Below are positions 5,967-37,151 of a stretch of DNA of 45,740 nt, in pieces. The position numbers and the translations under genes were made by a program. The stretch is from a virus. Within the stretch, counting starts at the first letter, position 1, and every line of letters starts with the position of its first letter. The notes under the pieces were generated by a model. The model was not told the DNA's origin and ran no database searches. It was given only the letters and a program-made list of their open reading frames with translations. The stretch is taken from IMG/VR virus record IMGVR_UViG_3300049827_000336, positions 1 through 45,740 of that record, one strand, 5' to 3'.

Positions 5967-7906
5967 ATCCATTCGCCGGCCAGTTTAAGCTAGGCACGGA
6001 GAAGCACCGGAAGATCTCCTCGTGGCTCGATGATAGGGTGAACCTCGCGCACGACGCCTACGACAGTCGCTTCTCCGACATGCTGAAAATGGAGAAGCAG
6101 TTCAACGCCTACGTTCCGACGAAGGATGTGGATCGGGAGCGGAAGCGGAAGAAGTCGGAGGAGGGCGAACACGACTATGTAACGATCGAGATTCCGTACT
6201 CGTATGCGACACTGATGACGGCGCATACGTACTATACCTCGGTGTTCATGGGAAGGAATCCGACGTTCCAGATGGCGGGTCGGCACGGGGAAGGGGAGCA
6301 GCAGACCCAGTGCGTTGAGGCGCTGCTTGATTATCAGTTCACAACCGGCGGCGGAATGGTGCCGCTGTTTGTTTGGCTGCTTGATCCGGGGCGATTTGGC
6401 TATGGCGTGATTGGCCACTTCTGGGACACCGAGCGAATCACGACCAGGCAGTATGTGGAGGAAGTACCGACGTTTCTTGGGTTGCCGATTCCAGGGGCAA
6501 AGCCGCGGAGAGTGCCGCAGCTCACCCAATCCGTGGGGTATCAAGGGAATCGGCTGTTCAATGTTCGCCCGCAGGACTTTCTGCCCGACCCGCGAAAGGC
6601 GCTGATTGACTTCCAAAAGGGTGAGTTCTGCGCCCGCTACGTGGAGATTTCGTGGCACGAGCTGAGCGCCGGCGAGCGGAGCGGGAAGTACTTCAACGTG
6701 GCTGCGTTGAAAGCGGCGCATGAGGCGACCCTACAGGGAAACATCGGGACAGTGACGCGGGATCGGGGGGCTGAGGATCTCGTGGCGCACTTGCAGCTTC
6801 CGGATAACGCCTTTGATGGGATTTCGAGCTATGAGATTCCCTCGGGGTTGGTGAAGGGGCATGAAATCTACGTTCGGCTGGTGCCGAGCGAGTGGGGACT
6901 GGGCGAGGGAGATGACTATGAAGTGTGGGTTTTCTCCAGATCCCAGACGGGAATTGTGTTTGGGGTGGAACCGCTGGGCTTGATCCACGGGAAGTTCCCC
7001 TTTGACATCCTTCTGAACGAGACGGAGGGGTATTCGCTGTTCAGCGCGTCCATGATGGATCGGGTTAGCCCGCTGAATGATGCGTTGTCGTGGCTTTTGA
7101 ACAGCCATATGTACAATGTTCGGGCGATGCTGAATAATCAGCTCGTGGTTGATCCCTCGCGGGTCGTGATGAAGGATGTGGAGTCGAAAGAAGCGGGAAA
7201 GATCATTCGGTTAAAGCCGGCGGCCTATGGCCAGGACGCCCGATCGGTGATTTCGCAGCTTCAAGTGGGCGATATTACCCGTTCACACCTTAATGATATG
7301 CAAATGTTCGAGCAGATCATTCAGAGGGTGCTCGGAGTCAACGACAATGTGATGGGGATGGTGAATACTGGTGGGCGGAAAACGGCGACGGAGGTCAGAT
7401 CGTCGACTTCCTTCTCCGTTAATCGGCTGAAAACGACGTGTGAGTGGTTTTCGGCGACCGGATTCGCGCCGCTGGCCCAGAAGTTGGTCCAGTCGAGCCA
7501 ACAACTGTATGACATGGGCCGGAAGATGAAGATCGTCGGGGACTTGGGCCAGATGGCGCCTCAGTTCGCGATGGTTACCTCCGATTCGATTGCGGGATTT
7601 TATGACTATGTGCCGGTCGATGGGACGCTTCCAGTGGATCGGTTTGCTCAGGCTAACCTTTGGCAGATGCTGATGGGACAGGCGAGGAACTTTCCGCAGA
7701 TCATGCAGGGGGTGGATATGGTGAAGCTGTTCGGGTGGGTGGCGAACCTGGCTGGGCTGAAGAACTTCAATCAGTTTAAGCTGCAAGTCGTGCCGGATGC
7801 AATGGCGATGGGGCAGGCACAGGCGGGGAACGTTGTCCCGCTTCGTGGTGGGCCGCCGCAGCTTACGGAGCCGGGCCAGGTGCCAATGATGGGGCAAACG
7901 ACATGA
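5957..7906 (+). CDS. Portal protein
   Basis: A 649-residue podovirus-type portal that would form the dodecameric DNA channel at one capsid vertex, docking the terminase and later the tail. Support comes from the length, its place directly after the terminase, an N-terminal charged helical region (SRFSDMLKMEKQFNAY) with a long stem-like helix, and the characteristic internal YGVIGHFW-type wing segment. The C-terminal part ends in a Gln/Gly/Pro-rich barrel-like tail. ATG 5957 overlaps the terminase end by 10 bases and the stop overlaps the next ATG (ATGA). Confidence 0.85.
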   Translation: MSLNPFAGQFKLGTEKHRKISSWLDDRVNLAHDAYDSRFSDMLKMEKQFNAYVPTKDVDRERKRKKSEEGEHDYVTIEIPYSYATLMTAHTYYTSVFMGRNPTFQMAGRHGEGEQQTQCVEALLDYQFTTGGGMVPLFVWLLDPGRFGYGVIGHFWDTERITTRQYVEEVPTFLGLPIPGAKPRRVPQLTQSVGYQGNRLFNVRPQDFLPDPRKALIDFQKGEFCARYVEISWHELSAGERSGKYFNVAALKAAHEATLQGNIGTVTRDRGAEDLVAHLQLPDNAFDGISSYEIPSGLVKGHEIYVRLVPSEWGLGEGDDYEVWVFSRSQTGIVFGVEPLGLIHGKFPFDILLNETEGYSLFSASMMDRVSPLNDALSWLLNSHMYNVRAMLNNQLVVDPSRVVMKDVESKEAGKIIRLKPAAYGQDARSVISQLQVGDITRSHLNDMQMFEQIIQRVLGVNDNVMGMVNTGGRKTATEVRSSTSFSVNRLKTTCEWFSATGFAPLAQKLVQSSQQLYDMGRKMKIVGDLGQMAPQFAMVTSDSIAGFYDYVPVDGTLPVDRFAQANLWQMLMGQARNFPQIMQGVDMVKLFGWVANLAGLKNFNQFKLQVVPDAMAMGQAQAGNVVPLRGGPPQLTEPGQVPMMGQTT

Positions 7907-25328: not shown

Positions 25329-28300
25329 ATGCCTTATGATGTAGAACTGCCAGACGGAACCCTGATAACCGACATTCCTGATGATGTGGATCAGAAGACG
25401 GCTCTTACAAAGATGGGGAGGAAGGATCCGCGGATAGCGAAATTCGCCCCGAAGACAGAGCTTACTTCACTCCCCGGACTTATCTCGATCGGAACGGCAG
25501 TTAAGCGGAGTGTGGGAGAACTTGGCCTGGCAGGAGCTTCGTCGGCGATTGAAGAGCCTGCGGTTGCCGCCGAGCAATCTCGCACAACGCAGCCTTGGCT
25601 CGAGGCATTACAGCGGAAGTATAATCCCTTTTACGAAAATGATCCGGCAATTGATGCTATGGTCGGAGCCCCGACTGATCCAGCGCGGCAGGAGTTGGCT
25701 GGAATGCGGAAGGAGTTTGTTAAGGGCAATCAACAAACGGCTGCGGTTAATCCGTCGCTTAATCTAGGGATTGTTCAGGGGACGGCGCAGAACTTTGTGC
25801 AGCAAGCGCCGGGGTTACTTGCTTCTGTCGCTAGTGGAAATCCGGCATTCGCGCTGGGGAACGCGGCCATCACGACGCAGATGTCTGGGCAGGAGCAAGC
25901 GATTGAGTCCGGTGTGGGGGCGGAGCAGGCAGCAGCGTCGGGTGCATTGCAGGCGATTCCGGAGGTAGCATTCGAGCTTTGGCCGATGGGAAAGTTGCTG
26001 AAGGAACTCGGAACGGATGCGTTTGTGAAGATGGCGGCGAAGTTTGTATTGCGGGAGGAAGTGACGGAACTCCCCACGACGGCGGCGCAGGAGATTATCA
26101 AGCTAGCGGTGGAGCGACCGGGGGAGTCGATGGCGACATTCCGGCCTCGACTGGTGGAAGCGCTGAAGGATACGGCTATACAGACGCCGTTTTCAGCCGG
26201 CGTAACCGCGGGAGCGGCAAGGGGACTGTATGAACTGGGCGGGAATACCGCTCCGATTATGGGGGATAAACCGCGCAATGTACCCCCACCTCCATCTTCA
26301 GTCGCCCCGACACCGGCTTCCGTAGTCGACGGAACCCTTCCAGTCGAGGACGGAGCGGAGACCTTTGTTGACTCCGAGCGGGGACGATCGCTGATTGACG
26401 CGCTAGACACCGTACCGGAAGAAGCAATCGCAGCCGTCATTCCTCCTGCGCCGGTGCAAGTTATTCCCGCCACGCCGTCGGGAGCCGCACTCGCCGCCGA
26501 CATCAATACTATCGTCGGGGCAGACATTGGAGAGTTCGGGCAAAGCCGTAAGGCAGCGGATAATGCAGTCAACTATCCCAATCCGAATAATGCGATTCCT
26601 CGGGGCGAACGCATTATCACGATTGGGCCGGAGGAAACTGTCGGCCAACCGTTACAGTCTATTGACTGGAATTCCGTTCCTCCAACGACGGTAACACTTG
26701 GGAAAGACACACTCGATCGTCCAGGATTCTGGATGAAGGGGGTGGCGAATATTACGGAGGCGCTGCGTTCTACCTTCATGCCGGATGCGACGTTCATTAT
26801 CTCGAATGAGCAGATTCCGAATGACGCATCTGTCGGCTGGCATTATGCCACCGGACGACCGAATACTTACATGATCGTGCCGGCTGCGTTGAGGAGGATT
26901 GGAGAACAGGCGACGAGGCAGTTCAATCCGAAAACACTGGTTAAAGCCTTTTATAACGTCTTTCACGAGTTCGGGCATGCATTGCTTGTGCATAGGATGT
27001 TTGAAGGGATGTCGCCGGAGTCACAAAAGGTGCTGCGCGGAAACGCTCACATTTCGGAAATGACGCCGGAAATGTTGGCTGAACTCGCCGCGGTGAATCC
27101 GAAGGCAGCGGCTGTCGTCCAAGATTGGCAGAATCGGGTGAGTCGAGTCCACGATGGCTCGATGACGGCGAAGGAATTTATTGCCACTTGGTGGGGGGCG
27201 ACGAAGGTATATCACAAGGGACTCGAGGCGGAACTCGCCCTCGGGCCGAATGCGTCGGCGCTGGATCTTGTGCGGGCTGTAGCGTTTAATAGTATTCAGC
27301 GAGAGCAGGACAAAAGTGGCATGATGGATCAGGTGTTCGGCGATCTCGTTAAGGAGAAGATGAGGCAGTACCTCTCGCTGGACGAGTTCGTTGCGGAACA
27401 AACGGCGAGGTATGCGCGGGACGTAGGAGCGGATATAACCTCCCCCTTCTTTCAAGATGCCTTGGCTAAGATGCGGGCATTTTTCCGGCAGCTGAAGCAG
27501 GGCATCCAGGCGCCGGACGGGACGACGTACTCGCTTGCCGCGGGGACAACGTTCAAGGAATGGATTGAAAGCATGGGGAATATGAGGAAGGGACTCAACT
27601 CCATGCGGGATGCGAGGATTGAGGCGAAAAAGGCGCTGACGGTGAAGGGGGTGAAGGTAGCGGCGAAGGCGAGGAAGGCGAAACCGCAAGCGCCGCCGAA
27701 GGAGAAAAAGGTTGCAGTCCCGAAGGATGTTTCAACGCAGGCAGCAACAATGCTCGGGATCGTGGATTCGATTGCCCCCTCTGGCGAGACGAATGATAAG
27801 ATTCGGGAGCTGATTGCGAAGGGGCGGTACGATGCTGCAGCGGATTTGCTTGCCCAGGCAATGGAGGGAAAGGTTCAGTGGGAGACGGATGAAACTTTCG
27901 AGGATGTGATTGACCCGCTGGAAGAGATCAAGGCAGAGGACGCGGCGATCGTCGATTTCATCTCGACGAATATGCCGAAGTATACGAGGGAGGATTATGA
28001 GCTTAGCACCCAGGCTTGGATCCTTCCGAATGGGGAGTTGAGGGAGCGGAAGTTCCACCATATGCCGGACGCGATGTGGACTATGCGTTCACTCGCCGCG
28101 GGGGAGCCAGTCGAACGGAATGCGCTGGAATCGACGAAGGAGTTCTTCGATTCGAAGATGACTGATGACATGTGGGATAGTCTGAGGCGAGTATTGAACG
28201 CTGGAGTTGTTAGGCAGACGGGAGGGGCCTTTTCCTTCGGAGACATGCCGCCGACAAGTGCGCAGATAAATACCATCTTGGATCGGGCGGCGGCCAAAGG

Positions 28301-31300
28301 TATGGCCTGGATTACACTCGAGTCTTCGGATAACTCAGCAATGACGTTTTCGATTATGAAGGAAACGGAGGTTATTCGGGGGGCAAGGAATTTGTCGAAG
28401 GAATCGCGGGAGAAGCTGGTTAAGCAGATGGAGTTGTATCTGCTATCCCCGCGGGTGGAAAATGTGATATCCGAAGTTCGGGCGAAAGCCCCGTGGTTTA
28501 AGCTGGAGTCAATCAAAGCTTGGAATGAAATGCGGGAGAAGTCTCCATTCCTCATCCGTTGGTTTGGGGATTGGATTCGTTTCCCGGAGTCGGCATCGAA
28601 GGTCGTAACGCATGATGGAGTACCGTTGACAGTATTCCACGCTGCGCCGAAGGGGAATTCCACCCTCCAATTTGGGGATATTGGGTATCACTTTGGGACG
28701 GCGCATGCCGCTGGAGCCAGGCAACACGGAGCGACGCAAGGGGTGGATTGGACGGTAAGGCCGTATTATTTAAGCATTAAGAAGCCGCTGGATATTGGGT
28801 CCGAGGGAGCGACGAATATCTGGGCTGAGCCGATGACGCTGGCGCTACACATTGCTGGCTTGCCGAATTCGCCGATCACAATGGAGGAGGTTTCACGCCT
28901 CATATCCGTTGGGAATCCGCAGTCGCAGGCGACGATGTACGAGGATTTCACGCCGTTGCGGGAGTTGTTGAGGGCAAAGGGATTCGATGGAATCAAATAT
29001 AAGAATGAGGTTGAGGGTGGAACATCTTGGGTAGCCTTTGACCAACCACAGGTTAAGCGTGCCGGCGGGGTCAACACGACCTTCTCGAGTTCACGAAGTG
29101 TGAACTGGGAACAGGGTGATGATTTCGACTTGACGACGGAAGAAGGCCAGGCTTCGGTGGATATGCTGAGCCGACTGAAACGGATTGGGCTGAACGTGCC
29201 CTGGATGCGGGAGGCATTGCGCCGGCGGTCGAAACTCGCCGCCCACGTTTTGCAGGGGCAGCAACTTGCCCAGCTCAACCCGGACTCCTTACCCTTTGCG
29301 AAAATGCGTGACTGGGCCGATCGGTTCGCACAGAAGAAATCATCATTCCTCATGATGCCGAAGGAGTTGTTGGACTGGGTTCGAGATCTTGGGAAAGAGA
29401 CTACGGCGAAGTTTTACGACATATTGCAGGAAGAGGCAAAGGGAAAGACGCATACCCTGACGATAATGGAAAGGGTTCAAGGGCGGGGATGGGTTCATCA
29501 GGTGAATCCTGCGGCTCATGACATTTTGCGAAGGGCAGGGATTTCCGAGGACCGTCTTGAGGAAGTGTATAAGCATATCCTAATGGAAAAGCAATCTATT
29601 ACGGACCTTATCAACTACGCCACGAATGTGCTTGCGGATAGGTATTTTCAAAAGTACAACGGGACTATGACGCCGGAGGAACTTCGTCGGAAGGTCATTA
29701 TGGAGGTGAAGGATCCACTGGATGTGTTTGCGCAAACGCCGTTTGTTCCAGAGACAAGCTTCGGCTCCGCGGCGGTGATTGTGGAAGAAAAGAAAGCGAA
29801 TGGAGCCTGGACGCCGATTTGGAAGCGAATGTTTGAAAGTGACATTAAGGCGGAAGCGGCACTAGTCGATTGGAATAGGCGTTTAGCCGGCAAGCCAGAT
29901 CTCCGGGTGGTTTCAAAGACAAGAATTCCGGAAAAGATCGGCGTGCTGATGAATTTGCCGAAGGAGTTTCTCGATGTTGCGGCGGAACAGTTGGGATTGA
30001 CTCTGGATGAACGACTGCAGCTCGAAGCCCTCCTCGTTCCAACAAAGATTGACAGGGTGACGGAACGGTTCCTGCAAAGGCTACCCGGCGCAACGAAGGA
30101 CCATATGAGGAATTATGCCGACTGGATGTGGCATACGACGAACGCTTTTACGAAGATGGAGTACGCTGGGAAGTTTTCGGAAGCCATCCGGCAAATGGGT
30201 AGTGATGTGAGATTGGCTCGTCAGATTGAAGATCCGATTATTCGCTTTCACGAAGAGCGGAGGCTTTCAATGCTGGAATGGTTCATGCGGCATCAGAAGG
30301 AATATATCCTCAATCCGCCGAATGAATATCAAGCGCTTAGAACAAGTGTGGCATTGTTTTACCTATGGGCCATGCCAAAAACGGCGCTGATGAATATGTC
30401 CTCGCTAATTTTCACGGCAACCCATCTGTCGGCGAAGCACGGACTGGTTGACGGAAATGTGAGGTTGGCGAAAGCGGTGGAGGAAGCAGCGCTATCTGTC
30501 GCCCCAACGAAGCTGCAGAAGGTGGATGAAGAACTCGCGGAGATGCTGCAAAAGGCGATTGATGAAGGATTGATTTCGGAATCGTATGCTTATCACGTTG
30601 CGGCTATAGCGAATAATGGGACGCTGTCGCGGCTGCCTTCGTCAAATCGCGCGGTTGCGTTTAAGGATAAGGCGCTTGAAGTTGGTATGTTCGCCTTTCG
30701 TGCAGTCGAGCACGGAACTCGTCGGGTGACCTTTATCGCCATGTATCATGAAGGACGGGATAGTGGGATGGCACCGGAGGAGGCCTATGCATATGCTTAC
30801 AAAATGACGAAGGCGCAGCAGAACTCGTATAACCCCTTCGATCGACCGGTAGTTATGCAGGGGGGACTTGCCCCCTTCACTATTTTCTATTCTTTCCTCT
30901 CACACTTTACATTCCACGCGCTAGGTGGATATGAAACAGGGCAGAAGCGGATGGCCCGCTTGCAGGGGGTGAGGGCGCCATCATCCTGGTTTGGATATAC
31001 GATGCAATTGCTTCTTATTGTTGCCCTCATGTCGGGGTATGAGGGACTGCCTGGAGCGGAGAGCATTTTGAACCTGCTTGACCCAATATTCCGCCGGCTG
31101 TTTGGAAAGCCTGCCCGACAATTTGCGCGGGAAGGGATGCAAGAGGTATTCGACGGCCTGGGTATTAATGCAAGTCCATCTTGGGCGGCGCATGGAGCCC
31201 TCAGTTCCGTCGGCTTGTCGCGGAGTTTTGGCTTTGGTAACATTGTCCCTGGAGCAGACTTCTTTAAGGAAGGGGATAACGAACGGGAATCAATTGCGAA

Positions 31301-31877
31301 CCTTGGCTTGGGATTGATGGGTCCGCTTGGAGGCGTTGTCGCTTGGGCAGCTTCGCCATTACTAAGTGACCGTTCATTTGAGGAAATTGTGAAACGAACT
31401 CCTGGCATCATGGGGCATGTAGCGACAGCTGTGGACTGGAGCATGAATGGAGCGAAAGGACCGGTGGGAGAAAGCCTTATGGTGGATGAAGCGGGAAATC
31501 CAGTTGAGCCGACTGCGGGACAAATTGCCTTGCGTGGCATGGGGTTTCAGAATCCGCAGGTTCTTGAGCGGCGGGAAATGCAGTTTGCACAGCTCGCCGC
31601 GAAGAACTATTGGAGTACTCGCCGGTCGGGACTGATGAAGGATTATGCGAAGGCGAGAGTAGAGCAAGATCGAGAGGCGATTGCGGATGCCAAGCTCGCG
31701 GTGAAGGAGTTTAACGAAGGGCTGCCGGAGAATTGGCGAGCCCTTCGTATCCGCGGAGAGCAGTTATCGAATGCGTTTATGGCCCGCCGGCAAGAGATTC
31801 GGGCAAGAGAATCTGGTCGGCCTCGGCAGCAAATGTATCGGGAAGTGTATGAGGAGATTGAATCTTTGTATGAATGA
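25329..31877 (+). CDS. Giant multidomain virion protein with protease and ART-like domains
   Basis: 2182 residues, the largest gene, placed where podoviruses encode the ejected internal protein (T7 gp16 position). N terminus MPYDVELPDGTLITD. A metallopeptidase-like HEFGH (HExxH) lies at residues 546-550 within FYNVFHEFGHALLVH. A Lys/Ala/Pro linker follows near 765-800. Residues about 1085-1245 resemble the ADP-ribosyltransferase-like domain of phage polyvalent proteins (VTHDGVPLTVFHAAPKG; IGYHFGTAHAAG; FDGIKYKNEVEGG; VAFDQPQVK). Long helical regions follow, and hydrophobic segments near 1850-1915 could span membranes. AAGGAG precedes the ATG. Likely injected with the DNA to act on the host; the enzyme activities are predicted from motifs only. 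Confidence 0.82.
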   Translation: MPYDVELPDGTLITDIPDDVDQKTALTKMGRKDPRIAKFAPKTELTSLPGLISIGTAVKRSVGELGLAGASSAIEEPAVAAEQSRTTQPWLEALQRKYNPFYENDPAIDAMVGAPTDPARQELAGMRKEFVKGNQQTAAVNPSLNLGIVQGTAQNFVQQAPGLLASVASGNPAFALGNAAITTQMSGQEQAIESGVGAEQAAASGALQAIPEVAFELWPMGKLLKELGTDAFVKMAAKFVLREEVTELPTTAAQEIIKLAVERPGESMATFRPRLVEALKDTAIQTPFSAGVTAGAARGLYELGGNTAPIMGDKPRNVPPPPSSVAPTPASVVDGTLPVEDGAETFVDSERGRSLIDALDTVPEEAIAAVIPPAPVQVIPATPSGAALAADINTIVGADIGEFGQSRKAADNAVNYPNPNNAIPRGERIITIGPEETVGQPLQSIDWNSVPPTTVTLGKDTLDRPGFWMKGVANITEALRSTFMPDATFIISNEQIPNDASVGWHYATGRPNTYMIVPAALRRIGEQATRQFNPKTLVKAFYNVFHEFGHALLVHRMFEGMSPESQKVLRGNAHISEMTPEMLAELAAVNPKAAAVVQDWQNRVSRVHDGSMTAKEFIATWWGATKVYHKGLEAELALGPNASALDLVRAVAFNSIQREQDKSGMMDQVFGDLVKEKMRQYLSLDEFVAEQTARYARDVGADITSPFFQDALAKMRAFFRQLKQGIQAPDGTTYSLAAGTTFKEWIESMGNMRKGLNSMRDARIEAKKALTVKGVKVAAKARKAKPQAPPKEKKVAVPKDVSTQAATMLGIVDSIAPSGETNDKIRELIAKGRYDAAADLLAQAMEGKVQWETDETFEDVIDPLEEIKAEDAAIVDFISTNMPKYTREDYELSTQAWILPNGELRERKFHHMPDAMWTMRSLAAGEPVERNALESTKEFFDSKMTDDMWDSLRRVLNAGVVRQTGGAFSFGDMPPTSAQINTILDRAAAKGMAWITLESSDNSAMTFSIMKETEVIRGARNLSKESREKLVKQMELYLLSPRVENVISEVRAKAPWFKLESIKAWNEMREKSPFLIRWFGDWIRFPESASKVVTHDGVPLTVFHAAPKGNSTLQFGDIGYHFGTAHAAGARQHGATQGVDWTVRPYYLSIKKPLDIGSEGATNIWAEPMTLALHIAGLPNSPITMEEVSRLISVGNPQSQATMYEDFTPLRELLRAKGFDGIKYKNEVEGGTSWVAFDQPQVKRAGGVNTTFSSSRSVNWEQGDDFDLTTEEGQASVDMLSRLKRIGLNVPWMREALRRRSKLAAHVLQGQQLAQLNPDSLPFAKMRDWADRFAQKKSSFLMMPKELLDWVRDLGKETTAKFYDILQEEAKGKTHTLTIMERVQGRGWVHQVNPAAHDILRRAGISEDRLEEVYKHILMEKQSITDLINYATNVLADRYFQKYNGTMTPEELRRKVIMEVKDPLDVFAQTPFVPETSFGSAAVIVEEKKANGAWTPIWKRMFESDIKAEAALVDWNRRLAGKPDLRVVSKTRIPEKIGVLMNLPKEFLDVAAEQLGLTLDERLQLEALLVPTKIDRVTERFLQRLPGATKDHMRNYADWMWHTTNAFTKMEYAGKFSEAIRQMGSDVRLARQIEDPIIRFHEERRLSMLEWFMRHQKEYILNPPNEYQALRTSVALFYLWAMPKTALMNMSSLIFTATHLSAKHGLVDGNVRLAKAVEEAALSVAPTKLQKVDEELAEMLQKAIDEGLISESYAYHVAAIANNGTLSRLPSSNRAVAFKDKALEVGMFAFRAVEHGTRRVTFIAMYHEGRDSGMAPEEAYAYAYKMTKAQQNSYNPFDRPVVMQGGLAPFTIFYSFLSHFTFHALGGYETGQKRMARLQGVRAPSSWFGYTMQLLLIVALMSGYEGLPGAESILNLLDPIFRRLFGKPARQFAREGMQEVFDGLGINASPSWAAHGALSSVGLSRSFGFGNIVPGADFFKEGDNERESIANLGLGLMGPLGGVVAWAASPLLSDRSFEEIVKRTPGIMGHVATAVDWSMNGAKGPVGESLMVDEAGNPVEPTAGQIALRGMGFQNPQVLERREMQFAQLAAKNYWSTRRSGLMKDYAKARVEQDREAIADAKLAVKEFNEGLPENWRALRIRGEQLSNAFMARRQEIRARESGRPRQQMYREVYEEIESLYE

Positions 31878-32070
31878 AGCATCGAGAGGAGCGCGGGCAG
31901 GATAGCTCCTCTAGGCGGACTCGTCGCCGCCACTTTCGTACATGTCGAGGGGTTATGCATAGCTCCTCGACAATCGCTTTAGTCTGCCATCCTCGCCGGG
32001 CGTAGAAGTAAGACCAAATGCAGCAATACCCCATTCGGCGAATGCGGACTGCAATGACCTCATATCCCAT
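31777..32070 (-). CDS. Small possible HTH protein overlapping the giant gene's end
   Basis: A 97-residue ORF whose ATG 32070 overlaps the stop of the upstream gene by 11 bases. The N-terminal half has an HTH-like run (ARRGWQTKAIVEELCITPRH followed by VRKWRRR). The last third is antisense to the 3' end of the giant gene and looks like filler. It may be the last gene of the leftward operon or a fragment; moderate to low certainty. Confidence 0.45.
   Translation of the reverse strand: MGYEVIAVRIRRMGYCCIWSYFYARRGWQTKAIVEELCITPRHVRKWRRRVRLEELSCPRSSRCFIHTKIQSPHTLPDTFAAEADQILLPESLAGGP
31885..31912. terminator. Hairpin at the convergent junction
   Basis: AGAGGAGC (31885-31892) and GCTCCTCT (31905-31912) form an 8-bp perfect stem with a 12-base loop, eight bases past the giant gene stop. 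A second perfect stem TGTCGAGG/CCTCGACA lies at 31943-31972. Neither has a U tract, but placement between converging operons fits termination or RNA protection. Confidence 0.5.
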
Positions 32071-33313
32071 GGCCAGTTGCGGACACTATTAGTTGTCCGC
32101 CCTCATTTTTGACCGTAACGTGGCCGGCTTGAATAGCTGACTTAAGCGCGACGGAGAATTCATCAGCTGACATAAGGCGAAAGACCCGTTGGTAGAGGTC
32201 ATTGTGATTGACGCGAAGAAGGTGGTGGACAATCTCGACAATTTGCGTGGAATGGCGACTTTCAACCGTCTGGCCGATCCGGGCGAAGACGCGATTGAGC
32301 GTGGGCTCGAGGGAAGATACGATGTCAGTGGCGGTGGATAACTGTTCACGGGTTATGGATAAGGTATTCCCGGCGCTCGCGCAAAGGATCATGGCGAGTT
32401 TGTGGATGTGCGTTTGCTTCCGGGCGAGGTAGCCGCCGAATTGCTCTTGGGATAAGTTGGGTGGAGGATTTTTCCAGTGATGAGAATACCACGATCGGCC
32501 CCATTCGCGGGCCGGCTGCGATATCTCAACCTCGCCGAATAGCGTGGATATTGCCTCGAGGTCGTGGATAAGGGTCTTTTGCAGATCGAGGAAATCTCCT
32601 GGAGTTGCTTCATCGGGATAGGCAACTTCCTGACGTTTGGTATCTGCGTAGACGAATACGCAACGGGAGGTGAAGCCGCCGCCAATGAGATACTCGGGAA
32701 AGTTACCGGATATCCAGGCAGGAGTGGTACAACCGATGAAGTTGATCCACGGATTATTCACCACTTCCTCTCCTCCGCCTTTAGTTAGTTTCCGTAAACT
32801 TCCTTTCTTTCCATCCCACAGGGTGACGAGTAAATCCACCATGTCACGGTCTTGAGGGTTGAGAAAGTTGCCGAGTTCGTCGCTGGCAACGGTAAGGGAG
32901 GACATGGATAGGAATTCCCCGGTGTTGGGGTCGACGACTTCCTCTGACGCCCCAGCGAATGCGGTGACAAGGGCCTGCCACGTCACTACATCTGGACCGA
33001 AGTGAATGCCCTCGACTTCACGGAGAAGGTTCATTCCGATATTGGCGGTTGTTGACTTGGATATAATACCCGGCGGAGCGACGAGGATGATGTAAAAGTT
33101 CGCGAGCCACTGGAAATACTTCATGTCGATGAAGACTTGACGACGTAGCGCGCCGGCAATGGTAGAGACTCCCGTCCACATAAGGGTGGATATTGGGGCT
33201 TCGCCGTGAGATGCGTAGTCAATGAAGGAACGTAGCCAGTCTTCATGATAACGAGTTCCGTTGACGCGGCGGACGAAAGGTGGTGCGGCGAGGCTAGGGC
33301 CATTGGCGTCCAA
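32060..33313 (-). CDS. DUF3987-like P-loop replication protein
   Basis: 417 residues from TTG 33313, supported by GGGGAG 6 bases upstream and a 20-base overlap with the polymerase C-part. Around residues 79-97 ILVAPPGIISKSTTANIG is a degenerate P-loop (SKST in place of GKS/T). SLTVASDELGNFL is a Walker B-like segment with conserved acidic residues, and FIGCTTPAWISG fits a sensor strand. This arrangement resembles DUF3987-type proteins of phages, considered helicase/primase-associated. It sits at the end of the replication cluster. Whether it hydrolyses ATP is uncertain because of the altered P-loop. Confidence 0.7.
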   Translation of the reverse strand: MDANGPSLAAPPFVRRVNGTRYHEDWLRSFIDYASHGEAPISTLMWTGVSTIAGALRRQVFIDMKYFQWLANFYIILVAPPGIISKSTTANIGMNLLREVEGIHFGPDVVTWQALVTAFAGASEEVVDPNTGEFLSMSSLTVASDELGNFLNPQDRDMVDLLVTLWDGKKGSLRKLTKGGGEEVVNNPWINFIGCTTPAWISGNFPEYLIGGGFTSRCVFVYADTKRQEVAYPDEATPGDFLDLQKTLIHDLEAISTLFGEVEISQPAREWGRSWYSHHWKNPPPNLSQEQFGGYLARKQTHIHKLAMILCASAGNTLSITREQLSTATDIVSSLEPTLNRVFARIGQTVESRHSTQIVEIVHHLLRVNHNDLYQRVFRLMSADEFSVALKSAIQAGHVTVKNEGGQLIVSATGHGI

Positions 33314-34040
33314 CGCATTCTCCCCAGGATTTATTTGAAGCTTTTAACCCCCACGGAATCGTGAGGGGATCTTCATATGGGATAGGAATGGAGATGAGAG
33401 GGAGAAGGGCGGCTAAGGTTTCGTCAAGGATGCGGGACGGAATTTGAATAACGAGGGAATCATGGACTTGAAGCAGGACTTCAGCGGGGATGCCGGACTC
33501 GTCGATGTTGAGCCAGGCGTAATTGGTAACACAGGCAACGGTGGATTGAGGAACCCAAGCAAGGGCTTCGTTAAAGACGGCGTCTGGCCGGTCGAAGTAT
33601 AGGCGGCGATATCCGAAGGGATTTCGGACAGAATGGGTGGAGGCAAGGTCGGACTTTACGCGCTCATGCCAGCGAAGAATACCGGGATGAATGGAGAACC
33701 AGCGGGCTTGGAAACGCTCGGCTTCGTGTATGGTAATGCCGAGGGCGGAGGCGACGGTGCGAGCCTTAGCGCCGTAGTTTGTGGCGTGGACGCCGACTTT
33801 CGCGCGGGTGTAGTATGGTTCACGCTTTCCGTCGGGGCCGGCGACTGGGCCGAAGATGTCGATGGCGTTGAGGGCGTGGACCTTTTTCCCCGACCGAAAC
33901 TTGGCCTTCAACGCCTCATCTCCGGATTCCCATGCGACGACCTGAGCGTCGGCACCGGCTTGGTCAATGTCGATGAGGGTGTATCCGGGGTCAGGGATGA
34001 ACATGGCCCGGAGGTTGGGTAAGTTAGCGACTGGGATCAT
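33294..34040 (-). CDS. DNA polymerase family A, C-terminal (palm/fingers) part
   Basis: 248 residues carrying the polymerase catalytic motifs: motif A TLIDIDQAGAD (catalytic D26), motif B RAKVGVHATNYG (79-90) and motif C QVHDSL (H193, D194). It starts MIPVANLPNLRAMFIPDPGY, the point where a single-chain family A enzyme would continue from the NLQNIP segment found at the end of the gene at 34084-35667. The two parts are in different frames, separated by a stop and 43 bases. The ATG at 34040 overlaps the stop of an 11-codon minicistron (ATGA). The active enzyme presumably forms from two chains. Confidence 0.85.
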   Translation of the reverse strand: MIPVANLPNLRAMFIPDPGYTLIDIDQAGADAQVVAWESGDEALKAKFRSGKKVHALNAIDIFGPVAGPDGKREPYYTRAKVGVHATNYGAKARTVASALGITIHEAERFQARWFSIHPGILRWHERVKSDLASTHSVRNPFGYRRLYFDRPDAVFNEALAWVPQSTVACVTNYAWLNIDESGIPAEVLLQVHDSLVIQIPSRILDETLAALLPLISIPIPYEDPLTIPWGLKASNKSWGECVGRQWP

Positions 34041-34072
34041 GCTTTTTCTCGCTTAAGTAAATCCTTGTCCAT
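34037..34072 (-). CDS. 11-codon bridging minicistron between polymerase parts
   Basis: ATG 34072 with AAAGGA 8 bases upstream encodes MDKDLLKREKA, and its TGA overlaps the ATG of the polymerase C-part. It lies in the third reading frame relative to both polymerase parts. The Shine-Dalgarno begins right after the TAA of the N-part. The arrangement looks like a translational-coupling device; it may also be chance. Confidence 0.4.
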   Translation of the reverse strand: MDKDLLKREKA

Positions 34073-34083
34073 TTTATTTTCCT

Positions 34084-35667
34084 TTATTCAGTGCGGGGGA
34101 TATTCTGCAAATTACCTCCGCTACCAAATGCATCTTCTGATGAGGATAAGCGGAAGGTCTCTGCTCCGGCTGGGTTAAACGATGACCTCATTCGGTTATC
34201 GCTATCCAATGGCATCTTGATGAAGGTGTTAAGGAATACTCCCATAGACCGCATTTGCAGGATCGTTGTGATGAGGTCATGGATGAGGGGCTCCTTCCGG
34301 GCGAGAACGGTAAGGGACTTTTCGTCCAAGGAGGGCATACCGGATTTACGATGGCGCTGGACAGGGAGCTTCAAGTCGTCATAGAAAAAGGCCTTCATTT
34401 GTTTCGGGGAGCTAACGTTAAGTTCAAATCCTGCGACGAAGTTGATAAGGGCTTGATGTTCGGTGATGGAGGAAAAGACTTCGCCGGCGAGTCGAGCACG
34501 GTAAGGACGGTCGATATTAACGCCCCGGAGCATGGTTTTGAATACTGGCCTGGAGGTGAACTTCATTTGTAATTTGTACTGTTCGACCAGCCCGGCTTGC
34601 TTGAGGGCGGTAAAAAGTACTGGCATGATTTCGAAGGTGCGACAACAGTCGACGGTATTGTAGTTCCAGAACGCATGAATATCGACTGGATATCGGTGGT
34701 AATCCTTGAGATCATCCTTCCAGTAAATGTGATTCTCACAGTACATGGAGGAGAGGAAATCAAGTGACTTTTGCATTCCGGGAAACAAGACAGACTGGGC
34801 AATCATCGTATCGTCAGTATGGTTTGGATTAATCCCGAGGTGCTTGGCGAAATGCTGACGATCATAAAGGCCGTTTTGCCAGATGACGGGGACAGTTGTG
34901 AGTATATCCTGGATGGAAAGGATGATGGCAGCTTCTTGTTCCGCGGACCAATAGGGGGTGCCGCCTCGACCGGCAAAGGGGATACATATAGCCTCCGTCG
35001 GTGACCAGGCAAGGCCGAGACAAGCGATATGTCGAGCGATCGTTTCGATGTCAGCAGCGACTTGACAACGCTTTTCGAAGATAAGATCAAGGGTGTCCAT
35101 GACGACTGCATAGCTCGGCTCGATGATCGCGTTGATAGCGTAAGGTTTGATCTCCGGGAACATTTGTTCGCGCTTACATCGCCGCAAGTCATGAACGGTT
35201 ATGTTTCGCCACTCGTACATGCGGAAAATGGCGAGGGGGGAGTATATGGGAATGACCTTAAGGTCAGGGACCAGCGTACAAGGCATGGTTGACCCGCGCC
35301 AGTTGCCAATGGCGTGCTCGCCGGTGAGGGCCCATAAAGCTGTTCGTCCAGCGGCGATGATGAGGTTCGGGCGAATGCGCTCGAGGAGTTCCTTAAGGTC
35401 AGCCATGCCGGATGCGACTTCAGGGCCAGGCTTTGTCTGGGACTTATCGAGGAAGAAGTGGGCAATGTCTCCGTTCGGCGGGCGAGTGGGGCAAACGTGA
35501 GTGATTGTGATATCCGAGCGGAGGATACCTGCCTCGTGAAGCATGGAGGTGAGGAAAGACCCGGCGGAGCCGGAGAATGGCTGACCGAAGCGAACGTCAT
35601 CGTCAGTTGGAACTTCCCCGACGAGGACGATTTTCGCCCCGGAGACAATAACCGGGGCGACTCTCAT
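34084..35667 (-). CDS. DNA polymerase family A, N-terminal part: UDG-like domain, 3'-5' exonuclease and thumb
   Basis: 527 residues. Residues 1-165 resemble a family 4-type uracil-DNA glycosylase domain (VLVGEVPTDDD near 14-24; VCPTRPPNGD near 58-67; IAAGRTALWALTG near 104-116). The 3'-5' exonuclease motifs are Exo I ADIETIA (D206, E208), Exo II WQNGLYDRQHF (N265, D269) and Exo III YNTVDCCR (Y336, D340). The chain then runs through the thumb and ends TFRLSSS (504-510) and NLQNIPRTE (519-527), exactly before where motif A should come, and stops at TAA. The palm is encoded by 33294-34040. UDG-like fusions to phage polymerases are known, but this split is unusual. Confidence 0.85.
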   Translation of the reverse strand: MRVAPVIVSGAKIVLVGEVPTDDDVRFGQPFSGSAGSFLTSMLHEAGILRSDITITHVCPTRPPNGDIAHFFLDKSQTKPGPEVASGMADLKELLERIRPNLIIAAGRTALWALTGEHAIGNWRGSTMPCTLVPDLKVIPIYSPLAIFRMYEWRNITVHDLRRCKREQMFPEIKPYAINAIIEPSYAVVMDTLDLIFEKRCQVAADIETIARHIACLGLAWSPTEAICIPFAGRGGTPYWSAEQEAAIILSIQDILTTVPVIWQNGLYDRQHFAKHLGINPNHTDDTMIAQSVLFPGMQKSLDFLSSMYCENHIYWKDDLKDYHRYPVDIHAFWNYNTVDCCRTFEIMPVLFTALKQAGLVEQYKLQMKFTSRPVFKTMLRGVNIDRPYRARLAGEVFSSITEHQALINFVAGFELNVSSPKQMKAFFYDDLKLPVQRHRKSGMPSLDEKSLTVLARKEPLIHDLITTILQMRSMGVFLNTFIKMPLDSDNRMRSSFNPAGAETFRLSSSEDAFGSGGNLQNIPRTE

Positions 35668-35870: not shown

Positions 35871-37151
35871 CTAGATGTCGATAGACAGGGACTTGATTCG
35901 CTCGGCGCAGATGTTGGCGTAGGCATCATTAGGCTCAATCCCGATAGCAACGCAGGACTGAGCGTCTGCTGCAGGGAAGATGGGGCCGGAACCTGCGCAC
36001 GCATCCAGAATGATATCGCCGGGGAGTGCGGAACGAGACAGCAGATCTATGTACAGGGCAACTGGTTTCGCCGCCCCGTGATCTTCAGCTTCAGCGGGGA
36101 TTGGGATCACGTCGGATTTGATGAGGTTGACCCGGCGATTTCCCTTAATGGCGAAAAGGATACACTCATACATGCGGCGAGGACCGTGTTCGGGCCAAGG
36201 AAGCATCCCCCGGTTCTTCGCCCAGATGAGGGGAGTCGGCCAAACTCGCCAGCCGGCAAGCTCGAACATTCCAGTGATTGAGGCAAAATGGCGAATGTCG
36301 AGGAAAAGGTAGGCGTGGGCACCGGCTGGAGATGCGAGCCGGGCAAATTCCCCCGCGAGGAAATCATACCGCTTAAGGGCAGATGCCTCGTCGTCGACGT
36401 ATGCGTGTTCGGTTGAAGCCTGGGAACCAAACTCATCCGCACCGACGCCGTAAGGAGGGTCGGTGATGAAGACTGCGATGTTGGGAGTAATGATGGGTAA
36501 GAGGTCTTCGCAACGACCTTTGTATAACTGATGAGGGGAGGCGGCTGGATTGAACGAGGCGGCGAGATCCGCTCGTTTTTCCGCGAGCAAGCGTTTCCGT
36601 ACAATCTTTTCCGCTTCCTTAAAGGAGGTTGCTTTCCTCACTTCCGGATCGTCAAGGAATGGTTTGAGTGCGATGGCGGTCGAGACGTTTGTGATTTGCT
36701 GACCTTCGGCCGGGGAACCTTGGATCTCACTCGCCGTCGCGCGAAGAGTTTGCGTAGGGTTCTGGGCTTTGCGCAGATCGTGCAGGCGGTTCACGGCCTC
36801 GATGTGTTCGATGAAGGGGAGGTCCACGCGAATGACGTTTTCAGCGAGCTCGAGCTCGAGCGCATGCAGTGGGTCGATTTCGCCGAAGGTGGTGATGGGA
36901 ATTGAGCCCGGCGGAATGCGGATATCGCCGCAAGTAAAGGCAATGTTTTTGACTACGAGCTGCTCAATCGCTCGCATTCGCCGTTCGCCGGATACCAGCA
37001 TCCATTGTCCATTCTCCCGCCGAGCAACGGGCGGATTCTGCAAGCCGAAGTGGGCAATGCTTGAAGCAAGTTCGTTAAGCTTGCCCTGATCGAAGGTCCG
37101 TCGCATACGGTAGTCCGGGACGATTAGTTCTGATAGTTTAATGATTAGCAC
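35871..37151 (-). CDS. ParB-like nuclease domain fused to DNA methyltransferase
   Basis: 426 residues from GTG 37151 (GGAG 7 bases upstream). The N terminus has ParB-type sequence (LIVPDYRMRRTFDQGKLNEL; MLVSGERRMRAIEQL at 51-65). The C-terminal half is an N6-adenine/N4-cytosine methyltransferase: DPPYG at 231-235 (motif IV), then an AKPVALY motif X-like segment (361-367) and the SAM-binding DACAGSGPI at 383-391 (motif I). The order IV-X-I is that of the circularly permuted beta class. Such ParB-MTase fusions occur in phages and probably modify phage DNA against host restriction. Recognition sequence not predictable. A terminator separates it from the preceding gene. Confidence 0.87.
   Translation of the reverse strand: MLIIKLSELIVPDYRMRRTFDQGKLNELASSIAHFGLQNPPVARRENGQWMLVSGERRMRAIEQLVVKNIAFTCGDIRIPPGSIPITTFGEIDPLHALELELAENVIRVDLPFIEHIEAVNRLHDLRKAQNPTQTLRATASEIQGSPAEGQQITNVSTAIALKPFLDDPEVRKATSFKEAEKIVRKRLLAEKRADLAASFNPAASPHQLYKGRCEDLLPIITPNIAVFITDPPYGVGADEFGSQASTEHAYVDDEASALKRYDFLAGEFARLASPAGAHAYLFLDIRHFASITGMFELAGWRVWPTPLIWAKNRGMLPWPEHGPRRMYECILFAIKGNRRVNLIKSDVIPIPAEAEDHGAAKPVALYIDLLSRSALPGDIILDACAGSGPIFPAADAQSCVAIGIEPNDAYANICAERIKSLSIDI

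Follow-up and report, generated by a model that had tools for sequence, protein, structure and literature searches.

Replicative polymerases divided between two genes have mostly been reported one at a time. For the OM43 phages MEP401 and MEP402, and for most of their group I relatives, a split family A DNA polymerase has been published (PMC10580990; OP830906 gp13/gp14/gp15), the Bacillus phage Aurora carries its DNA polymerase in two open reading frames (ORFs) with a 44-bp mutated region between them (PMC9965433), and in jumbo phages the catalytic subunit of the replicase, DNA polymerase III alpha, is predicted to consist of N- and C-terminal units (PMC7824862); our literature searches for a split family A polymerase with a uracil-DNA glycosylase (UDG)-like domain returned these cases only. 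Here we analyse a 45,740-base virus record, IMGVR_UViG_3300049827_000336 of IMG/VR, whose whole length is called the window below, and in which a polymerase of this kind is encoded by two genes. Very probably it is a naturally two-gene replicative DNA polymerase of family A, whose separately translated chains reassemble into one polymerase.

A first-pass annotation, made from the letters of the window, had proposed a family A polymerase divided between the genes at 34084-35667 and 33294-34040, and we found the ORFs, the motifs and the different reading frames as it had described them. The parts of the system are the following.

34084..35667, minus strand: gene of the N-terminal polymerase subunit (N-ORF), 527 amino acids, ending NLQNIPRTE-TAA; it matches Pfam UDG, DNA_pol_A_exo1 and the N part of DNA_pol_A, and PHROG 17 (DNA polymerase) at positions 479-987.
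35212..35640, minus strand: UDG-like domain, residues 10-152 (PF03167, E 4.6e-20).
34648..35052, minus strand: 3'-5' exonuclease domain with catalytic D206, E208, D269, Y336 and D340 (PF01612).
34093..34485, minus strand: residues 395-525, comprising the thumb and the first segment of the palm as far as NLQNIP (PF00476 positions 9-134).
33294..34040, minus strand: gene of the C-terminal polymerase subunit (C-ORF), 248 amino acids, the palm/fingers core with motifs A, B and C (PF00476 positions 139-350).
33942..33971, minus strand: motif A, DIDQAGADAQ (D26, D31), with D26 invariant in 131/131 aligned relatives.
33774..33800, minus strand: motif B, K81-x3-H85-x3-Y89, with His at the E. coli F762 position, placed by alignment with relatives and Pol I structures.
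33456..33470, minus strand: motif C, QVHDS, with H193 and D194 invariant in 131/131.
34041..34083, minus strand: intergenic junction of 43 nucleotides; each of the three frames has a stop at or across it, as read from the sequence.
34037..34072, minus strand: mini-ORF MDKDLLKREKA, 11 codons, with AAAGG before it (Shine-Dalgarno duplex energy -5.6 kcal/mol) and an ATGA overlap with the start of the C-ORF.

The N-ORF and the C-ORF together make up one polymerase, because they cover adjoining positions of the DNA_pol_A model (9-134 and 139-350) with only few positions missing between them. D26, K81, Y89 and H193-D194, the residues that characterise family A, are all present in an alignment with structures of Bst and other Pol I enzymes, while the usual, though not strictly defining, placement of the whole polymerase domain in one chain is not found. 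The five exonuclease residues form the DEDDy set of a proofreading Pol I-type enzyme and are kept throughout the 131 relatives, in 46/46 split and 85/85 unsplit ones; D26, D31, K81, H193 and D194 of the polymerase are kept in 46/46 alignable split pairs, and Y89 in 45 of them.

The UDG-like domain is a trait of the whole polymerase family, split or unsplit. In the window it matches the UDG-superfamily profile, although residues 1-160 hold two cysteines and not the four iron-sulphur cysteines that are a hallmark of family 4 UDGs, and Ser143 stands where the usual YHPA motif has its His, so that the domain looks catalytically degenerate. Residue 85 of the C-ORF (33786-33788) is His, and it is invariant in the 131 relatives. 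An earlier survey of viral PolA retained solely Phe, Leu or Tyr at the E. coli F762 position (PMC9069017), and it would therefore have missed this family.

The position of the cut recurs in other viruses. About 200 loci, ranked by similarity to the query, were gathered from IMG/VR, GenBank phages and GTDB contigs by tblastn and pattern scans and classed with profiles of both halves; after removal of duplicates 142 loci holding both halves were left, 93 of them with the polymerase in one ORF and 49, the window included, split at the same junction. In 44 of the 49 the N-ORF stops 4-7 residues after NLQNI, typically as NLQNIPKGDEE-stop, and the C-ORFs open just before [LM]PN[IVL]R; the window likewise has its N-ORF stop within about 10 residues of NLQNI and its C-ORF start just before this second motif. 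Such a recurrence in 48 other loci is far beyond chance. The gap between the N and C profile matches ranges from 11 to 2,920 nucleotides, being at most 80 in 13 loci, many of which have ATGA, TGATG or TAATG overlaps, and above 100 in 36. Among the split loci are the GenBank Vibrio phage VS-ABTNL-3 (PVS_29/PVS_27) and two genome-database contigs (L201 and L202 in our numbering of loci).

The same polymerase is interrupted elsewhere too. Other recurring split sites were seen in L016, L023, L030, L038 (Caulobacter phage Kuura) and L075, and elsewhere in L033, L048 and L118, mostly ahead of the YNxxD motif of the exonuclease (at about profile position 323-339) and in some cases with ORFs between the pieces. 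An in-frame insertion of about 250 amino acids in the exonuclease of L001 (4636-5393; motif YNC|EDC) has Pfam Intein_splicing and Hint matches and is an intein by its sequence, the sole confirmed one in the survey. In-frame insertions of about 290 amino acids lie near motif B in the C half of L155 (5997-6865) and L163 (6872-7737) and gave no Pfam match. The unsplit L032 has an insertion of about 67 amino acids (7671-7870) at the very loop where others are cut, which may stem from an inserted ORF fused back into the gene or be a loop that was extended.

In the window the N-ORF and the C-ORF lie in different frames, the TAA and the ATG are 43 nucleotides apart, and from the P of NLQNIP to the L of LPNLR there are 73 nucleotides, with the C-ORF opening as MIPVANLPNLR at 34040. 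The 11-codon mini-ORF in between is possibly a coupling leader or a remnant of an insertion. Translation signals were assessed by the energy with which the region before a start pairs with the 16S tail. The median for 49 C-ORF starts is -6.4 kcal/mol, against -1.8 at 2,455 internal ATGs of the same genes (p 1e-16), and the window's C-ORF has -5.4 kcal/mol. In minimal splits (L001, L058, L071 and L149) the K-G-D codons themselves form a purine-rich, Shine-Dalgarno-like sequence, for instance AAGGGAGAT and AAAGGAGAT, just upstream of an ATGA overlap, which is the standard arrangement for translational coupling. The 21 nucleotides after NLQNIP are Shine-Dalgarno-like in unsplit relatives as well (median -6.3 versus -2.7 in random in-frame stretches, p 1e-18), and such codons could ease splitting or be a relic of re-fusion.

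From the data above the following scheme would be reasonable. The first gene would provide a chain of UDG-like domain, exonuclease, thumb and proximal palm, and the second, from its own Shine-Dalgarno site and start codon, a palm/fingers chain with motifs A, B and C, whose translation would be coupled via the ATGA overlap to the 11-codon leader; both chains would then fold together across the palm loop into one polymerase-exonuclease. That the N and C chains physically assemble and that the heterodimer is active, we infer. Such a split probably arises easily, as the K-G-D/E codons after NLQNIP already read as a Shine-Dalgarno site and a new stop and start nearby would suffice; alternatively, a mobile element could produce it by inserting at the junction, and the junction, once split, would tolerate inserted genes.

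Predicted structures agree with this scheme. The C chain of the window alone is modelled by AlphaFold2 with a mean predicted local distance difference test score (pLDDT) of 96.1, and Foldseek aligns it to Klenow and Taq with a query-normalised template modelling score of about 0.8. In the model of a close unsplit full-length relative, L002 (pLDDT 93), the split site falls within an irregular stretch, 531-561, of lower confidence inside the fold, and a cut at this loop appears compatible with assembly from two chains; alignments for the predictions were built without rows from the annotated-phage collection. Both halves are under purifying selection in close pairs, the ratio of nonsynonymous to synonymous substitution rates (dN/dS) being 0.06-0.15 for each half in the two least diverged split pairs, while other pairs are near or beyond synonymous saturation. 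Distances of the N and C halves are correlated in split pairs (r 0.50), a value reached in 0/1000 permutations.

The junction could also be crossed during translation, programmed frameshifting or ribosome bypassing of the kind known for T4 gene 60 joining both ORFs into one chain. The shortness of the gap in the window and overlaps of a few bases in some relatives would fit this, but no reading frame stays open across the junction, and since the C frame meets two stops after the end of the N-ORF and before the C-ORF start, a single frameshift cannot fuse the halves in the window. In the 36 relatives with gaps above 100 nucleotides, which reach 2.9 kb, mostly unrelated genes lie between the halves, and whole gene blocks there exclude recoding in practice; together with the Shine-Dalgarno sites at C-ORF starts this leaves recoding very improbable. 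Joining at the RNA level, by a group I or II intron, possibly degenerate or split, that is spliced out, has in its favour that phage family A polymerase genes are classic intron hosts and that an intron was raised for MEP401 by its authors (PMC10580990). The Rfam families, introns included, gave no match in the window or in 13 split loci, on which ground we rejected a group I/II intron at the junction; 43 nucleotides are below the size of a self-splicing intron, and what is inserted are protein genes, unrelated and closely packed, each with a start of its own. We give this reading hardly any weight, less than any other considered here. An intein at the junction was likewise rejected, as most N-ORFs end at KGDE without a splicing-domain tail. 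The first-pass annotation had ruled out an intron, an intein and a homing endonuclease for the junction of the window, and this holds. Scarcely more credible than an intron is an error of sequencing or assembly, or a recently broken pseudogene: a lone metagenomic contig could of course carry an indel, which the annotation had named as the thing to be excluded, but the same junction in 48 other loci, VS-ABTNL-3, L201 and L202 among them, excludes such an artefact, and kept catalytic residues with low dN/dS in close pairs do not fit a pseudogene.

A different matter is how the split came about, and an explanation compatible with two chains is that it is the scar of a homing endonuclease, an HNH gene having brought the stop and the start and later been lost or replaced by cargo. 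The near-identical polymerases of L056 and L058 differ in this very way, the latter having a bare 4-nucleotide ATGA overlap and the former an HNH-type gene exactly there, which is direct evidence that a mobile-type gene was recently gained or lost at this site. A few cargo ORFs match HNH families, and the intein in the L001 exonuclease also points to mobile elements in this polymerase. Against it, HNH matches occur in few of the 36 cargo-bearing junctions, and a homing endonuclease was rejected as the general cargo; 13 junctions have little or nothing in them, several of these having coding-derived Shine-Dalgarno overlaps for which no element is needed. We regard the scar as a serious but less than even possibility. 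As to the two-gene polymerase itself, three observations weigh against it or limit its reach: the Shine-Dalgarno sites of the window are moderate, the 49 of 142 come from a similarity-ranked sample and are not a population frequency, and the correlation between the halves is lower in split pairs (0.50) than in unsplit ones (0.76), which may reflect divergence or swapping of halves. The nearest row to the window by path is L120 for the N half and L001 for the C half (66% identity), possibly due to recombination exchanging halves at the junction.

The history of the split is not simple. A tree of 131 rows from both halves requires 13 changes of the split label, of which supported branches force at least 7, a mixture-model tree of 79 rows requires 12, at least 5 of them forced, and the single-half trees give 13 and 12, where such counts do not tell gain from loss. 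A single origin was rejected by the approximately unbiased test (p-AU 7.5e-65) when 20 representative split rows were held as one clade in a 38-row subset. From 12-13 changes and the rejected single clade it follows that the split is recurrent or was repeatedly undone; a supported clade of 17-18 deeply diverged rows, all of them split, means that it is also stable.

In many loci the junction is occupied by other genes. Among 64 inserted ORFs scanned, there were 7 dUTPases, the commonest identified cargo, 3 ribonucleotide reductases and 1 ThyX, and further matches were to HNH endonucleases, a YfbR-like HD phosphatase, a pyrophosphatase, a DnaQ-like exonuclease, a Mom-like protein and a regulator. 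All 7 dUTPase ORFs come from a single clade and the reductases from a second one, so that part of the cargo is inherited. Since genes of this kind are frequent in replication modules, these counts do not establish enrichment over the neighbourhood. A bolder proposal would be that family A replicases which are obligate heterodimers have arisen at this one loop on many occasions, and that the junction is a selected site for making enzymes of dNTP supply (dUTPase, ribonucleotide reductase, ThyX) between the two polymerase subunits, by which their dosage or assembly would be tied to the replicase; the split would then be functional and not a tolerated accident. We consider this unlikely.

The window has a phage structural set of TerL, portal/adaptor, capsid and tail genes, and its replication block on the minus strand comprises a primase/helicase-like gene, the polymerase pair, a ParB-methyltransferase, a Sak4-like protein and an exonuclease. 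No second DNA polymerase was found among about 30 window ORFs scanned. Downstream of the C-ORF lies

32060..33313, minus strand: primase/helicase-like gene overlapping the C-ORF end (PHROG 14296, DNA primase, E 1.4e-78).

Just upstream of the polymerase genes, at 35871-37151 on the minus strand, a ParB-like domain is fused to a DNA methyltransferase domain. A 2,182-amino-acid ORF on the plus strand (25329-31877) shows in its C-terminal third weak DarB-like/antirestriction matches and matches to PHROGs of unknown function.

Here one palm loop, from the QNIP element to motif A, was cut, and possibly rejoined, many times. The natural series of split and unsplit sisters allows tests of how a replicative polymerase turns into an enzyme of two subunits, whether a Shine-Dalgarno site already present in the coding sequence eases the cut, and why genes of nucleotide metabolism settle between the halves. 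The loop also marks a practical split point for engineering of split polymerases.

In comparison with the systems mentioned at the beginning, Aurora shares with the window a DNA polymerase in two ORFs, but it belongs to the Salasmaviridae, whose polymerase is of the protein-primed family B type, is a single case and keeps both ORFs in the same frame. The split replicase subunit of jumbo phages is a family C enzyme. Within family A, unsplit polymerases with the same order of UDG, exonuclease and PolA domains and about 40% identity over both halves are found in Microcystis phage Mel-JY34 (XAI96477) and Bacteriophage sp. ctMlz233 (UOF77826), where, unlike in the window, they form one continuous ORF. 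Vibrio phage VS-ABTNL-3 has the same family, the same junction (NLQNLPKGDG stop; DCQLPNIKKLF) and a similar neighbourhood, but a 184-amino-acid ORF of unknown function stands between its halves, which have 32-38% identity to those of the window; they are annotated as separate genes, and we found no discussion of the split in the literature. MEP401 similarly has exonuclease and N palm in one ORF and motifs A-C in a second, with a small unknown ORF between (77 amino acids in MEP401). Its cut, however, is placed about 17 residues further on, where it follows ...IKTLFLSRYGE and directly precedes the strand of motif A (MILNADAKALEW), and its N-ORF (gp13, 387 amino acids) starts at the exonuclease and has no UDG-like domain, so that the window shares neither the cut position nor the domain set, and the MEP401/402 polymerase was not detected by the half-profiles built in this analysis. 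The first-pass annotation had judged a two-subunit replicase with a UDG-like N terminus to be unusual. The split is real, but about one third of the sampled relatives have it, it has repeatedly arisen or reverted, and split family A polymerases had been described before, in OM43 phages and with the cut in a neighbouring loop (PMC10580990). New here, in relation to the published splits, are a different cut in a different lineage, its many repeats and the use of the junction as a site of gene insertion.

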